A stretch of 13,422 nt of DNA. Source: Hyphomicrobiales bacterium. GTDB lineage: Bacteria; Pseudomonadota; Alphaproteobacteria; Rhizobiales; Xanthobacteraceae. The DNA lies in NCBI GenBank assembly GCA_017304505.1, contig JAFKKQ010000119.1, forward strand, positions 1 to 13,422. Reading direction: 5' to 3'. The position numbers were made by a program, and so were the translations under genes. The notes under the pieces were generated by a model. The model was not told the origin of the DNA and did no database searches. It worked only from the letters and a program-made list of their open reading frames with translations. Shown here piece after piece: positions 6,339 through 9,938 of the stretch (the first letter of the stretch is position 1; each line of letters starts with the position of its first letter).

Positions 6339-7280
6339 GAAGCGCGCGGGCTTGGGGAGCGCGGATTGCGAAGGCGTGTGCTGCTTATTGCAGGCCCGAC
6401 CGCGAGCGGCAAGTCGGCGCTGGCGCTGACGCTGGCCGAGCGGCTCGGCGGCATCATCGTTAATGCCGATTCCATGCAGGTCTATCGCGATCTTCGCGTC
6501 ATCACCGCGCGGCCCACCGTGGACGACGAGGCGCGCGTGCCGCATCGGCTCTATGGTCATATCGATGCGGCGGAGAATTATTCGGTCGGCCGCTGGTGTG
6601 CGGATGCGCGGGCAACGCTGGCAGAGGCTGAGCGGGAGAGCCGGTTGCCGATCGTCGTCGGCGGCACGGGCCTTTATTTCAAGGCGTTGACCCAGGGGCT
6701 TTCGGCCGTGCCGCCGACTCCGCCCGAGATTCGGGCCGCTGTCCGCGCGCGCTGCGACCGTGATGGCGCGGCGGCCCTGCACGCTGAATTGGCGCGTCGC
6801 GATCCGGCGATGGCCGGGCGGCTCAAGCCCGGCGACCGCATGCGTGTCGCGCGCGCGCTCGAGGTTCTCGAGGCGACCGGGCGGTCGCTCGCCGACTGGC
6901 ATCGCGACGGCATGCCGGCGATCCTCGACCCTGAAAGTGCCGTGAAAGTGTTTCTGGCGGTTGATCGGGCGGAACTGCACCGCCGGATCGACGAGCGCTT
7001 CGACGGCATGCTCGCGGCCGGCGCACTGGGTGAGGTGGAGGCGCTTGCCGCGCGGGGCCTCGATCCGATGCTGCCGGCGATGAAGGCCCACGGCGTGCCT
7101 TGGCTGCGGCGGCACCTCGCGGGCGAGATCGGCCTGGATGAGGCGGCCGAGGGGGGCAAGCGCGACACCCGGCGCTACACCAAGCGGCAGGCCACCTGGT
7201 TTCGCCATCAGATGCCGGGTTGGGCTTGGCTTGATGGGGAAGCCGCACTCCGGGACATCGAGCGGCAGTTTGCGGCCTGA
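6330..7280 (+). CDS. miaA: tRNA dimethylallyltransferase
   Basis: Transfers the dimethylallyl group from DMAPP to N6 of A37 in tRNAs reading UNN codons. The product is 316 residues from ATG 6330, close to E. coli MiaA. It shows the P-loop GPTASGKS at residues 22-29, [11 protein letters not shown] with Asp47, [15 protein letters not shown], the [13 protein letters not shown] motif, an insert domain with [17 protein letters not shown], and the C-terminal [14 protein letters not shown] signature. ATG 6330 has AGGG at 6319-6322. A TTG at 6366 (residue 13) with GGGGAG at 6354-6359 is a credible alternative start, and would remove the 9-bp overlap with serB while keeping the whole P-loop. No hfq follows, unlike in E. 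coli; the next operon is ilv. Confidence 0.95.
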
Positions 7281-7309: not shown

Positions 7310-7338
7310 TTGACCGGAGGTCTTCCAGCCCGTATATC
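7310..7338 (+). promoter_or_regulatory. Promoter of the ilv leader and ilvIH
   Basis: TTGACC (7310-7315) and TATATC (7333-7338) are 17 bases apart, a very good match to the alphaproteobacterial housekeeping promoter. It begins 30 bases after the miaA stop, and the predicted transcription start is near 7345. That would place about 190 bases of leader RNA before ilvI, containing the leader ORF and two hairpins described separately. Confidence 0.65.
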
Positions 7339-7369
7339 CGCCGCAACGAAATGCCGAAAGAATGGTTCT

Positions 7370-7432
7370 GTGCGCAACTTTATTACTAAATTGCTGATCC
7401 TCGTACGAAGGCGCGCCGTCGTGGGTGGCTAA
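7370..7432 (+). CDS. Candidate ilv leader peptide (attenuation)
   Basis: A 20-codon ORF from GTG 7370 to TAA 7430-7432. Its peptide contains Leu-Leu-Ile-Leu-Val as residues 8-12 and Val-Val at 17-18; in all, 8 of 20 residues are Leu, Ile or Val, the end products of the operon it precedes. It sits just after a good promoter. Its last codons form the 5' arm of a strong hairpin, and its stop codon is exactly the TAA in the hairpin loop. This is the expected design of a leader whose translation senses charged branched-chain tRNAs. The weak point is the start: GTG, with only a purine stretch (GAAAGAA, 7356-7362) as a ribosome site. Two other short ORFs begin at ATG 7351 and ATG 7362 in the other frames. 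Confidence 0.6.
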   Translation: MRNFITKLLILVRRRAVVGG

Positions 7433-7456
7433 GCCACCCAGGGCACGACGGTGCGC
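7411..7456 (+). promoter_or_regulatory. Leader hairpin 1 (pause/switch element) upstream of ilvI
   Basis: An outer 12-bp stem pairs 7411-7422 with 7445-7456 (one G-U pair). An inner 7-bp stem pairs GGGTGGC (7423-7429) with GCCACCC (7433-7439) over a TAA loop, with a 5-base bulge at 7440-7444. The 5' arm is coding for the leader peptide and the loop is its stop codon, so a translating ribosome would open the structure. I could not identify by eye a convincing alternative pairing (antiterminator) between this element and the next hairpin. Confidence 0.6.
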
Positions 7457-7460
7457 GGAC

Positions 7461-7486
7461 AGGGGCTCTTGGGCCCCTTGTTGATT
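7461..7486 (+). terminator. Candidate attenuator terminator before ilvI
   Basis: AGGGGC (7461-7466) and GCCCCT (7473-7478) make a 6-bp GC-rich stem over a 6-base loop, followed by TTGTTGATT, a moderately T-rich tail. It lies after leader hairpin 1 and 47 bases before the ilvI ATG, where the terminator of an attenuator is expected. The T-tract is interrupted, so strength is uncertain. Confidence 0.45.
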
Positions 7487-7532
7487 CCCGGATCGGCGAT
7501 TTTCGATAAGCAGCGAGTGAGTGGAGCGGACG

Positions 7533-9293
7533 ATGACCAAGCAGATGACCGGCGCCGAAATGGTGCTTGAGGCGCTTGCCGATCAAGGCGTGCAGCACAT
7601 CTTCGGCTATCCGGGCGGCGCGGTGCTGCCGATCTATGACGCGATCTTCCAGCAGAAAAAGGTTCAGCACGTCCTGGTGCGCCACGAGCAGGGCGCGGTG
7701 CATGCGGCGGAAGGCTATGCGCGTTCCACCGGCAAGGTCGGCTGTGTGCTGGTCACGTCCGGTCCCGGCGCCACCAACGCGGTGACGGGTCTGGCCGATG
7801 CGTTCTGCGATTCCATTCCGATCGTCGTCATCACTGGGCAGGTGCCGACGCACCTGATCGGCAACGATGCCTTCCAGGAGTGCGACACGGTCGGCATCAC
7901 GCGGCCGTGCACGAAGTACAATTACCTGGTCAAGACCATCGAGGATTTGCCGCGCGCGCTGCATGAGGCGTTCCACATCGCTGCGAGCGGGCGGCCGGGT
8001 CCGGTCGTGATCGATATTCCGAAAGACATTCAGTTCGCCAGCGGTACCTACACCAAGCCGCAGGCCATTCAGCACAAGGGCTATCATCCTCGGCTGAAGG
8101 GCGATCCCGCTGCGATCAAGCATGCCGTGGACTTGATGCAGCGCGCCAAGCGCCCGCTGTTCTACACCGGTGGCGGCATCATCAACTCCGGCCCGAACGC
8201 CAGCAAGCTGCTGCGCGAACTGGTCAAGCTTACCGGTTTTCCGATCACATCGACGTTGATGGGGCTTGGTGCTTATCCGGCCTCGGGTCCGGCGTGGCTC
8301 GGCATGCTGGGCATGCACGGCACCTGGGAAGCAAACTGGGCGATGCACGATTGCGATCTGATGATCTGCATCGGCGCGCGCTTCGATGACCGCATCACCG
8401 GGCGCCTCGATGCCTTTGCGCCGAATTCGACCAAGATCCACGTCGATATCGACCCGTCGTCGATCAACAAGAACGTCAAGGTCGACGTGCCGATCATCGG
8501 CGACTGCGCGCATGTGCTCGAGGAGATGGCCGCGCTCTGGCGCGCGGGCAAAGCATCGCCGGAGAAGAAGGCGCTGGCGGCCTGGTGGAAGGAGATCGAC
8601 ACGTGGCGGGCGCGCAAATCGCTCGCCTATCGACCCTCGAAGAGCGTGATCAAGCCGCAATACGCCATTCAGCGGCTTTATGAACTGACCAAGGATCGCG
8701 ACACCTACATCACCACCGAGGTGGGACAGCATCAGATGTGGGCGGCGCAGTTCTACCACTTCGAGGAACCGAACCGTTGGATGACCTCCGGTGGGCTCGG
8801 CACGATGGGCTATGGCCTGCCGTCGGCGGTTGGCGTTCAGATGGCGCATCCGAAGTCGCTTGTGGTCGACATCGCCGGCGAAGCCTCGGTGCTGATGACC
8901 ATGCAGGAGATGTCGACGGCCGTGCAGTACCGGCTGCCGATCAAGATCTTCATCCTCAACAACCAGTACATGGGGATGGTGCGGCAATGGCAGGAATTGC
9001 TGCACGGCGGCCGCTACGCCGAGAGCTACACGCACTCGCTGCCGGACTTCGTGAAGCTCGCCGAGGCGTATCACGCGGTCGGCATCCGCTGCGAGCAGCC
9101 GGGCGACCTCGACGACGCGATCAAGGAAATGATCGCTGTCGACAAGCCGGTGCTGTTCGATTGCCGGGTCGATCAGACCGAGAACTGCTTCCCGATGATT
9201 CCGTCCGGTCGCGCCCATAACGAGATGCTGTTGGGCGACAGCGGCGAGAGCGTCGAGGGCGCCATCACCGAAGACGGAAAGATCATGGTGTGA
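7533..9293 (+). CDS. ilvI: Acetolactate synthase large (catalytic) subunit
   Basis: ThDP-, FAD- and Mg-dependent condensation of two pyruvates to 2-acetolactate, or of pyruvate with 2-oxobutyrate, the first common step of Val/Leu/Ile synthesis. The 586-residue product has the catalytic Glu52 in VRHEQGAVH, VTSGPGATNA, ASGRPGPVVIDIPKD, the MLGMHGTWEANWAMHDCDLMICIGARFDDRITG central segment, SGGLGTMGYGLPSAVG, and the ThDP-binding stretch ending FILNNQYMGMVRQWQ. It resembles E. coli IlvI along its whole length; ilvB is an equally used symbol. The start is ATG 7533 with GTGGAG at 7521-7526; an upstream in-frame GTG (7521) is that ribosome site itself. In the metal/ThDP motif the usual Gly-Asp-Gly/Ala-Ser reads Gly449-Glu450-Ala-Ser. 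The gene follows a leader with attenuator features and is followed by ilvH. Confidence 0.96.
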   Translation: MTKQMTGAEMVLEALADQGVQHIFGYPGGAVLPIYDAIFQQKKVQHVLVRHEQGAVHAAEGYARSTGKVGCVLVTSGPGATNAVTGLADAFCDSIPIVVITGQVPTHLIGNDAFQECDTVGITRPCTKYNYLVKTIEDLPRALHEAFHIAASGRPGPVVIDIPKDIQFASGTYTKPQAIQHKGYHPRLKGDPAAIKHAVDLMQRAKRPLFYTGGGIINSGPNASKLLRELVKLTGFPITSTLMGLGAYPASGPAWLGMLGMHGTWEANWAMHDCDLMICIGARFDDRITGRLDAFAPNSTKIHVDIDPSSINKNVKVDVPIIGDCAHVLEEMAALWRAGKASPEKKALAAWWKEIDTWRARKSLAYRPSKSVIKPQYAIQRLYELTKDRDTYITTEVGQHQMWAAQFYHFEEPNRWMTSGGLGTMGYGLPSAVGVQMAHPKSLVVDIAGEASVLMTMQEMSTAVQYRLPIKIFILNNQYMGMVRQWQELLHGGRYAESYTHSLPDFVKLAEAYHAVGIRCEQPGDLDDAIKEMIAVDKPVLFDCRVDQTENCFPMIPSGRAHNEMLLGDSGESVEGAITEDGKIMV

Positions 9294-9398: not shown

Positions 9399-9938
9399 GT
9401 GAACAGCACCTCCCATTATCCCGCGGCCACTGTGATGGAGCGGATCGAGACCCACACCTTGTCGGTGATCGTCGACAACGAGCCGGGCGTGCTGGCACGG
9501 GTGATTGGGCTGTTTTCCGGCCGTGGCTACAACATCGACTCGCTGACGGTGTCGGAGACCGAGCACGAGAAGCACCTGTCGCGCATCACCATCGTCACGC
9601 GCGGCACGCCGATGGTGATCGAGCAGATCAAGAACCAGCTCGAGCGCCTGGTGCCGATCCATCGCGTGGTCGATATGACGCTGGTGGGGCTCTCGATTCA
9701 GCGCGAACTTGCGATGGTGAAGGTGCGCGGCAAGGGCGAGCACCGGGTCGAGGCGTTGCGGCTCGCGGACGCCTTCCGCGCTCGCGTCATCGACGCCAGC
9801 ATCGGGAGCTTTATCTTCGAGATCACCGGGGCGAGCGACAAGGTCGACAGCTTCATCGGCCTGATGCTGCCGCTCGGGCTGGTCGAGGTGTCGCGCACCG
9901 GCGCCGTCGCCATCGGCCGTGGCGCCGAGGCGATGTGA
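9399..9938 (+). CDS. ilvH: Acetolactate synthase small (regulatory) subunit
   Basis: Regulatory subunit that activates the catalytic subunit and confers valine feedback inhibition. The 179-residue product has an N-terminal ACT domain at about 18-92 (HTLSVIVDNEPGVLARVIGLFSGRGYNIDSLTVSE) and a C-terminal ACT-like domain (ELAMVKVRGKG... RVIDASIGSFIFEITGASDKVDSFI). The length fits the two-domain IlvH type rather than the short E. coli IlvN. The residues aligning with the valine site of E. coli IlvH are kept (Asn27, Gly30, Asn45, equivalent to Asn11, Gly14, Asn29), so valine inhibition is likely. The start is GTG 9399, with AAGAGGAA at 9386-9393. ATG 9435 is a shorter alternative and would begin directly at the ACT domain. 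The symbol ilvN is also used for this gene. Confidence 0.94.
   Translation: MNSTSHYPAATVMERIETHTLSVIVDNEPGVLARVIGLFSGRGYNIDSLTVSETEHEKHLSRITIVTRGTPMVIEQIKNQLERLVPIHRVVDMTLVGLSIQRELAMVKVRGKGEHRVEALRLADAFRARVIDASIGSFIFEITGASDKVDSFIGLMLPLGLVEVSRTGAVAIGRGAEAM

Follow-up and report, generated by a model that had tools for sequence, protein, structure and literature searches.

The trp, leu, and ilv attenuators of Escherichia coli combine a leader peptide harboring regulatory codons, which are themselves biased in choice, with a hairpin just after these codons and a terminator. In Caulobacter, the ilv leader contains a coding sequence with tandem Ile and Val codons and mediates attenuation of the operon, according to passages of PMC4117421 citing Tarleton 1994. 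For S. meliloti, an ilvIH cis-regulatory element is listed in a section of PMC2573895 citing Vitreschak 2004.

The locus analyzed here lies in a 13,422-nt stretch of DNA from a Hyphomicrobiales bacterium (hereafter the window). As in the Caulobacter crescentus ilvBN/ilvIH attenuator, to the extent that it is portrayed in the same passages (PMC4117421), a branched-chain leader coding sequence and a rho-independent terminator precede an alphaproteobacterial acetolactate synthase operon; the cluster in the window differs in having Leu codons besides those for Ile and Val, the comparison being one of descriptions rather than structures. With the proteobacterial ilvIH attenuators, as they appear in the section of PMC2573895 citing Vitreschak 2004, it shares the operon, the taxonomic order, and a cis-regulatory element, structures aside. 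Regulatory codons, a hairpin just after them, a terminator, and codon bias are common to the window and the E. coli trp, leu, and ilv attenuators, whose theory is treated in excerpts of PMC1183508. In contrast to the latter, the family of the window has no detected co-varying antiterminator strand, and the leader stop codon resides in the loop of the first hairpin. The features of the locus, all on the + strand, are as follows.

7310-7338, +: promoter TTGACC-17-TATATC (sequence; congeners by eye)
7370-7432, +: leader peptide ORF MRNFITKLLILVRRRAVVGG with a GTG start and a UAA stop (aligned with the MRN..I..(L/I/V cluster) leaders of relatives)
7378-7492, +: match to Rfam RF02502 (Atu_C8) (cmscan, 44.1 bits, cut-off 50)
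7391-7405, +: control codons Leu8 UUG, Leu9 CUG, Ile10 AUC, Leu11 CUC, and Val12 GUA (conserved cluster)
7411-7456, +: hairpin 1, with lower stem 7411-7422/7445-7456, upper stem 7423-7429/7433-7439, and loop 7430-7432, the UAA stop (fold; covariation)
7432-7438, +: candidate 5′ part of an antiterminator (AGCC-A-CC), with partner GGGGCT at 7462-7467 (fold; no support from co-variation)
7461-7478, +: intrinsic terminator hairpin (fold; covariation; matched-duplex tests)
7479-7487, +: T-rich tail TTGTTGATT, weaker than that of most relatives (alignment with relatives)
7533-9293, +: ilvI, acetolactate synthase large subunit (Pfam TPP_enzyme N, M, and C)
9399-9938, +: ilvH, acetolactate synthase small subunit (Pfam ALS_ss_C and ACT_AHAS_ss)

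The leader is located directly upstream of ilvI on the same strand, and its Pfam-recognized neighbors are miaA upstream and ilvI, ilvH, and ilvC downstream. The near-consensus promoter noticed in the sequence-only reading is present, with the −35 element TTGACC at 7310-7315 and the −10 element TATATC at 7333-7338 separated by a 17-nt spacer. By eye, the same arrangement (CTTGAC...TATAT-) recurs upstream of the leaders in five of six congeners, the five with enough upstream sequence, although a consensus scanner, which demands T as the last −10 base, reported no promoter at the window leader. The upstream miaA gene (6450-7280, Pfam IPPT) ends 29 nt from the promoter, and the end of miaA also lies upstream of ilvI in several relatives (by eye). 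MiaA influences E. coli attenuators via the modification of tRNAs that read U-starting codons. Elsewhere in the window, a Hammerhead_II match at 2021-2093, within a long ORF, scores 23.8 bits (cut-off 37, E 0.41) and is probably due to chance.

The leader spans 20 codons, from the GTG at 7370 to the UAA at 7430-7432. When the upstream 400 nt are shuffled 500 times, a short ORF with five consecutive Ile, Leu, or Val codons arises twice. A covariance model (R1) was built from 17 leaders of the window's family, and conservation of the leader frame is evident throughout the model alignment, whose 100 rows were picked because they match the covariance model; the in-frame leader was found directly in 90 rows and starts just before the model in the other 10 (by eye, the start in L284 is one codon further up). 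The 90 parsed family leaders begin with ATG (71), GTG (18), or TTG (1), and all except one retain the branched-chain codon run (89/90). Examples from congeners are the peptides MRNFITQMLVLVGRRTAGGG (L118) and MRNFIAQRLVLVRRRTAMGG (L116). Of the two codon groups that had caught attention in the window, the short ORF with its Leu-Leu-Ile-Leu-Val (LLILV) cluster is conserved among relatives, whereas the Val17-Val18 pair is nearly confined to the window, Val being found at the fourth-last residue in 3/90 leaders and at the third-last in 5/90 (window counted). Two other short ORFs, beginning at ATG 7351 and ATG 7362 (the latter with Leu-Leu-Leu), were rejected as the leader; neither shares the reading frame of the conserved leader, and these upstream ATGs are not retained in all congeners (by eye).

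The control codons are selectively chosen. Codons were counted in the 81 distinct leaders among a set of 89 (from the window, 64 named loci, and 24 loci retrieved with RF02502) and compared with the ilvI genes of the same loci. Val codons of the cluster are GUA in 86/152 cases vs 40/3365 in ilvI, a count that leans slightly toward GTA because the leader detector awarded one point for this codon. Leu codons are CUU or CUC in 99/104 cases vs 1211/3349, with CUG reduced to 2/104 vs 1927/3349, and Ile codons are AUU in 62/106 cases vs 389/3057. The family set, which was found by the covariance model and not by the GTA-scoring detector, has GUA at 112/188 and GUC at 53/188 of the Val codons, as well as CUU or CUC at 119/141 and CUG at 17/141 of the Leu codons. 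The window obeys this preference at CUC11-GUA12 but not at UUG8-CUG9; in eight ORFs of the window, GUA accounts for 1/273 Val codons.

In the congener G400, ARAGORN identifies one tRNA-Val each with the anticodons UAC, GAC, and CAC, along with tRNA-Leu species with CAA, GAG, CAG, and UAG, from a list that is incomplete (1/45 matches unconfirmed, and no tRNA-Ile(GAU) present). We take GUA to be read by tRNA-Val(UAC) and CUU/CUC by tRNA-Leu(GAG). AUU and AUC are read by one tRNA, so the raised AUU is not explained by isoacceptor choice, which is thus rejected as the only source of the bias; a requirement for unstructured sequence may contribute as well. Given the decoding assumed above, the GUA and CUU/CUC preference would fit the selective-charging theory in the form in which it appears in excerpts of PMC1183508.

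The 12+7-bp hairpin whose loop is the leader stop codon, as proposed from the sequence, is recovered by folding: hairpin 1 has 12 lower and 7 upper pairs and a loop of exactly UAA, at −37.4 kcal/mol. The intrinsic terminator between the leader and ilvI has an energy of −12.2 kcal/mol (fold of 7459-7482). The second GC-rich hairpin of the earlier description is therefore present, but the T-rich tail ascribed to it is imperfect, its T run being broken by a G (TTGTTGATT). At least five consecutive T residues follow the terminator in 15/16 aligned relatives, and the tail of the window is among the two poorest in the 17-row set. The broken run may reflect a weak terminator or an error in a fragmented assembly. 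As a whole, the 193-nt leader RNA has a fold energy 2.9 sd below that of shuffles, with 2/200 being equally stable.

Compensatory changes are found in both hairpins in the 17-row alignment, where 86.6% of the cells pair and 13/26 pairs show double changes. The covariation score is as high in 0/500 shuffles, which ignore relatedness and probe a structure that came from the window; slid-partner controls give 2-9 double-change pairs, with pairing falling to 41-50%. The relatives do not generally retain the pairs of 7421 and 7422, which form in 7/17 and 4/17 rows, respectively. The geometry is similarly well kept. Among 99 distinct leaders, the 5′ arm of hairpin 1 follows the control codons, with a median distance of 4 nt from the last control codon to the first paired base, and the median gap between the end of hairpin 1 and the terminator is likewise 4 nt. 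In 91 of these 99 leaders, and in 86/90 of the family set, the stop codon falls at least partly within an apical loop. In these comparisons, L017 (a doubtful leader) is excluded from the relatives' folding, codon counts, duplex tests, and geometry; L065 (no terminator found) from the folding, duplex tests, and geometry; and L003 and L004, duplicates of L122 and L125, from the duplex and geometry sets.

Short GC hairpins are to be expected in a GC-rich genome, and a leaky terminator could merely precede ilvI, with the hairpins and the ORF being incidental. Such a coincidence is exceedingly improbable, as the leader frame, the codon choice, and the covariation are kept across families.

RF02502, the Rhizobiales sRNA family Atu_C8, aligns at full length across both window hairpins, yet its score of 44.1 bits (E 2.1e-6, cmscan) is below the gathering score of 50, and its best matches are Rhizobium-type leaders, e.g., L082. 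Matches are found in 217/397 genomes of the order, 71 of them above the cut-off. None is found in 14 control genomes, including Caulobacter vibrioides, and thus the RF02502 model does not reach the Caulobacter leader. The filing of RF02502 as an sRNA raises the alternative that the terminated leader acts mainly in trans, with attenuation being secondary, and the trp attenuator RNA of Sinorhizobium is reported to regulate in trans (Melior 2019, as mentioned in part of PMC10117765). Our search of the literature on Atu_C8 itself retrieved nothing relevant. However, the conserved parts of the window leader are those of an attenuator, i.e., a coding frame, control codons, a terminator, and a place before ilvI, making a primarily trans-acting role quite improbable.

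Leaders were further sought upstream of the best 80 of 590 confirmed ilvI loci (the named loci), 78 of which have enough upstream sequence. The detector scans 400 nt and scores the branched-chain cluster, promoter, terminator, ATG, and GTA. Candidates precede ilvI in 65/78 of these loci vs 23/390 shuffles at a loose threshold and in 61/78 vs 0/390 at a strict one. No candidate occurs within the scanned 400 nt in 13/78 of them, including Hyphomicrobium, Parvibaculum, and Methyloligella. R1, run on the named loci without L003 and L004, which were already part of the model, yields 61 matches at E ≤1 among the remaining 78 of the 80 loci, 51 of these at <0.001. The 61 comprise 60/63 detector-positive loci and L042 (E 0.002), which has no detector candidate and whose match starts upstream of the scanned 400 nt. 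The Caulobacteraceae leaders L079 and L080 also match R1 (E 0.0015 and 0.0017, respectively).

Within the family, R1 has a single match in each of 134/149 genomes, or 119/134 when the 15 that built the model are excluded, and in 114/121 of the good-quality genomes. It has no match in 15/149, including the congener G404 and G428. In G404, ilvI was not found whole; in G428, the locus L127 has a leader by eye and is absent from alignment A1. Leaders were read by eye in all six congeners examined (of ten) as well as in the eleven family loci L119-L129. By eye, no leader is recognizable before ilvI in L130, L131, L133, L135, and L136 (5/29 of the relatives L113-L141), and some leaderless ilvI loci have a TTGACC promoter close to ilvI. 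On the basis of the 13/78 named loci that lack a candidate and the 15/149 genomes that lack an R1 match, ilvIH can probably do without the leader.

The module can be found more than once per genome, with two RF02502 matches listed in 16/397. Among those inspected, G306, G320, and G260 (L142, L143, and L144) have two matches ~2.7 kb apart, one before each ilvI copy; G223 (L154) has a second ilvI copy of which only the end is in view, and in G023 (L146) an ilvI paralogue (61% identity) follows one of the matches. In G369, G332, G127, G357, and G396 (L147, L149, L151, L153, and L145), the leader precedes an MFS-transporter-like gene instead of ilvI (three by eye). These transporter-associated leaders encode peptides such as MMIENGMVVVGARMGTAA and MNTALVLVVVGRRMGRMV and have a hairpin and a terminator. 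The partial products of L147 and L145 score best with the Bcr/CflA efflux model TIGR00710, at 151.7 and 122.3 bits against a whole-protein cut-off of 200.9. Among the titles and opening abstract lines of the listed literature, no report of leader peptides with CflA/MFS transporters in rhizobia was found.

The window leader is in all likelihood a ribosome-mediated transcription attenuator of ilvIH, namely the alphaproteobacterial ilv leader. The branched-chain attenuator-like leader proposed at the outset is borne out by the conserved frame, the cluster, and both hairpins; the control codons, the spacing, the stop codon in the loop, and the place before ilvI are likewise conserved. As judged from these sequence features, the leader very probably switches on ilvIH when Leu, Ile, or Val runs short. 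Transcription start, translation, termination, and the response to amino-acid supply are predicted to proceed as follows. RNA polymerase would start near 7345, and a ribosome would follow on the 20-codon leader. When Leu-, Ile-, and Val-tRNAs are charged, the ribosome would quickly pass the LLILV codons and finish at the UAA that forms the hairpin 1 loop; with the ribosome so placed, the hairpin at 7461-7478 would form and transcription would end near 7480-7486. When the tRNAs for the LLILV codons are poorly charged, the ribosome would stall ~5 nt before hairpin 1 and cover the lower stem on its 5′ side, and the polymerase would go on into ilvIH.

How a stalled ribosome could prevent termination was examined by folding the window leader with the ribosome at each of its 21 codons. 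These folds at alternative ribosome positions show that the terminator, once complete, forms with near certainty in every modeled state. Hairpin 1 remains largely closed when the A site is at codons 8-12. In a classical four-strand switch of the trp type, AGCC-A-CC (7432-7438) would pair with GGGGCT (7462-7467) on stalling and be masked by a ribosome at the stop codon. This pairing enters the minimum-energy fold (−15.6 kcal/mol) only when codon 16 or 17 occupies the A site, before the 3′ arm of the terminator emerges; the same six pairs are possible in L118, and six unbroken pairs in L117. However, at codons 16-18 the window encodes Ala-Val-Val and the six congeners encode Ile/Thr-Ala-X, and a stall at codons 8-12 leaves intact the upper stem that hides AGCCACC.

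Averaged over 99 leaders, terminator formation is 0.928-0.945 in all three states (offset 10). Pairing of the terminator 5′ arm with upstream sequence in these leaders depends on the assumed ribosome footprint and was computed by equilibrium folding, which ignores transcription kinetics: it is 0.529 in the stalled state vs 0.477 at the stop codon with a 12-nt footprint, 0.479 vs 0.476 with 10 nt, and 0.361 vs 0.484 with 8 nt. The 12-nt footprint favors the trp-type switch, with the stalled state exceeding the stop state by >0.1 in 27/99 leaders and the reverse in 8, but the counts are even with 10 nt (26 vs 24) and reversed with 8 nt (21 vs 52).

Duplex tests compared matched with mismatched leaders (1000 permutations) for ten region pairs in 98 leaders and for eight pairs in 86 leaders; leaders without a found terminator and identical leaders were not counted, and the two sets, which partly overlap via alignment-A1 leaders, are not independent. 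In the 98 leaders, the duplexes of hairpin 1 (matched −30.09 vs mismatched −21.77) and of the terminator (−12.17 vs −9.44) are each equaled in 0/1000 permutations. In contrast, strand 2 paired with the terminator 5′ arm gives −6.52 vs −6.43 (245/1000) in the 98 leaders and −6.98 vs −7.07 (756/1000) in the 86. In the 98 leaders, shuffling strand 2 gives a stronger duplex (−7.30, sd 0.17), although this null is unclean since strand 2 is constrained by hairpin 1. Strand 2 with the terminator 3′ arm is marginal in the 98 leaders (39/1000) and absent in the 86 (578/1000), and strand 1 with the terminator 5′ arm gives 586/1000 and 61/1000, respectively. Complementarity between the control-codon region and strand 1 is weaker within a leader than between different leaders (−9.65 vs −10.61, with 1000/1000 permutations lower in the 98 leaders), as if the region were kept free.

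Mutual information, scanned over 111 alignment columns with 98 distinct rows, points in the same direction, although the alignment was fitted to the model structure and is hence biased toward it. Among 32 listed pairs with >80% canonical cells, 12 are pairs of the structure, and hairpin-1 pairs occupy the top seven canonical places. The isolated canonical pairs 7423-7430, 7447-7469, and 7403-7488 (z ~5) have no neighboring support and were set aside; non-canonical pairs, such as 7483-7487 and 7429-7433, are also high (z near 12).

These analyses agree with the initial failure to see an antiterminator pairing by eye: only hairpin 1 and the terminator clearly co-vary in the 98 and 86 leaders. 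No conserved, co-varying pairing of strand 2 with the terminator 5′ arm was detected by these tests, which would not reveal a helix formed by invariant bases. Since matched scores should be inflated by relatedness, the lack of an antiterminator signal is all the more telling. Within the reach of the tests, the antiterminator is missing from the family as a whole and was not simply overlooked by eye. Without co-variation of its central pairing in either duplex test, the four-strand switch is unlikely.

A different helix, the 13-bp pairing 7388-7400/7490-7502, is part of the minimum-energy fold of 7340-7532 and was missed in the sequence-only reading; it could in principle be a switch that leader translation opens. 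Its 3′ arm lies beyond the terminator and would be made only after read-through, a helix as long or longer arises in 9/300 shuffles, and congeners show no sign of it by eye. This pairing was rejected, and the chance that it is the switch is very small.

Ribosome-mediated attenuation by the window leader could then operate differently from the textbook scheme. A tentative proposal, which we regard as possible but doubtful, is that the rhizobial-type ilv leaders are two-hairpin attenuators that have no antiterminator strand and carry their stop codon in the loop of hairpin 1. Termination would be decided not by an alternative helix but by where the ribosome stands relative to hairpin 1, acting through timing, spacing, or pausing of RNA polymerase, and the same module would be reused before Bcr/CflA-like efflux genes in some Hyphomicrobiales.

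For the window, the findings indicate that ilvIH is under leader-peptide control as in its relatives, by a kind of leader that is already known. Of wider interest is the pattern across ~100 leaders, in which the geometry is strongly conserved and the codons are selectively chosen, yet no antiterminator co-varies. If this pattern holds, leaders of this large group would achieve ribosome-mediated attenuation without needing the mutually exclusive helix of the textbook, and simple reporter mutants could test how they switch.
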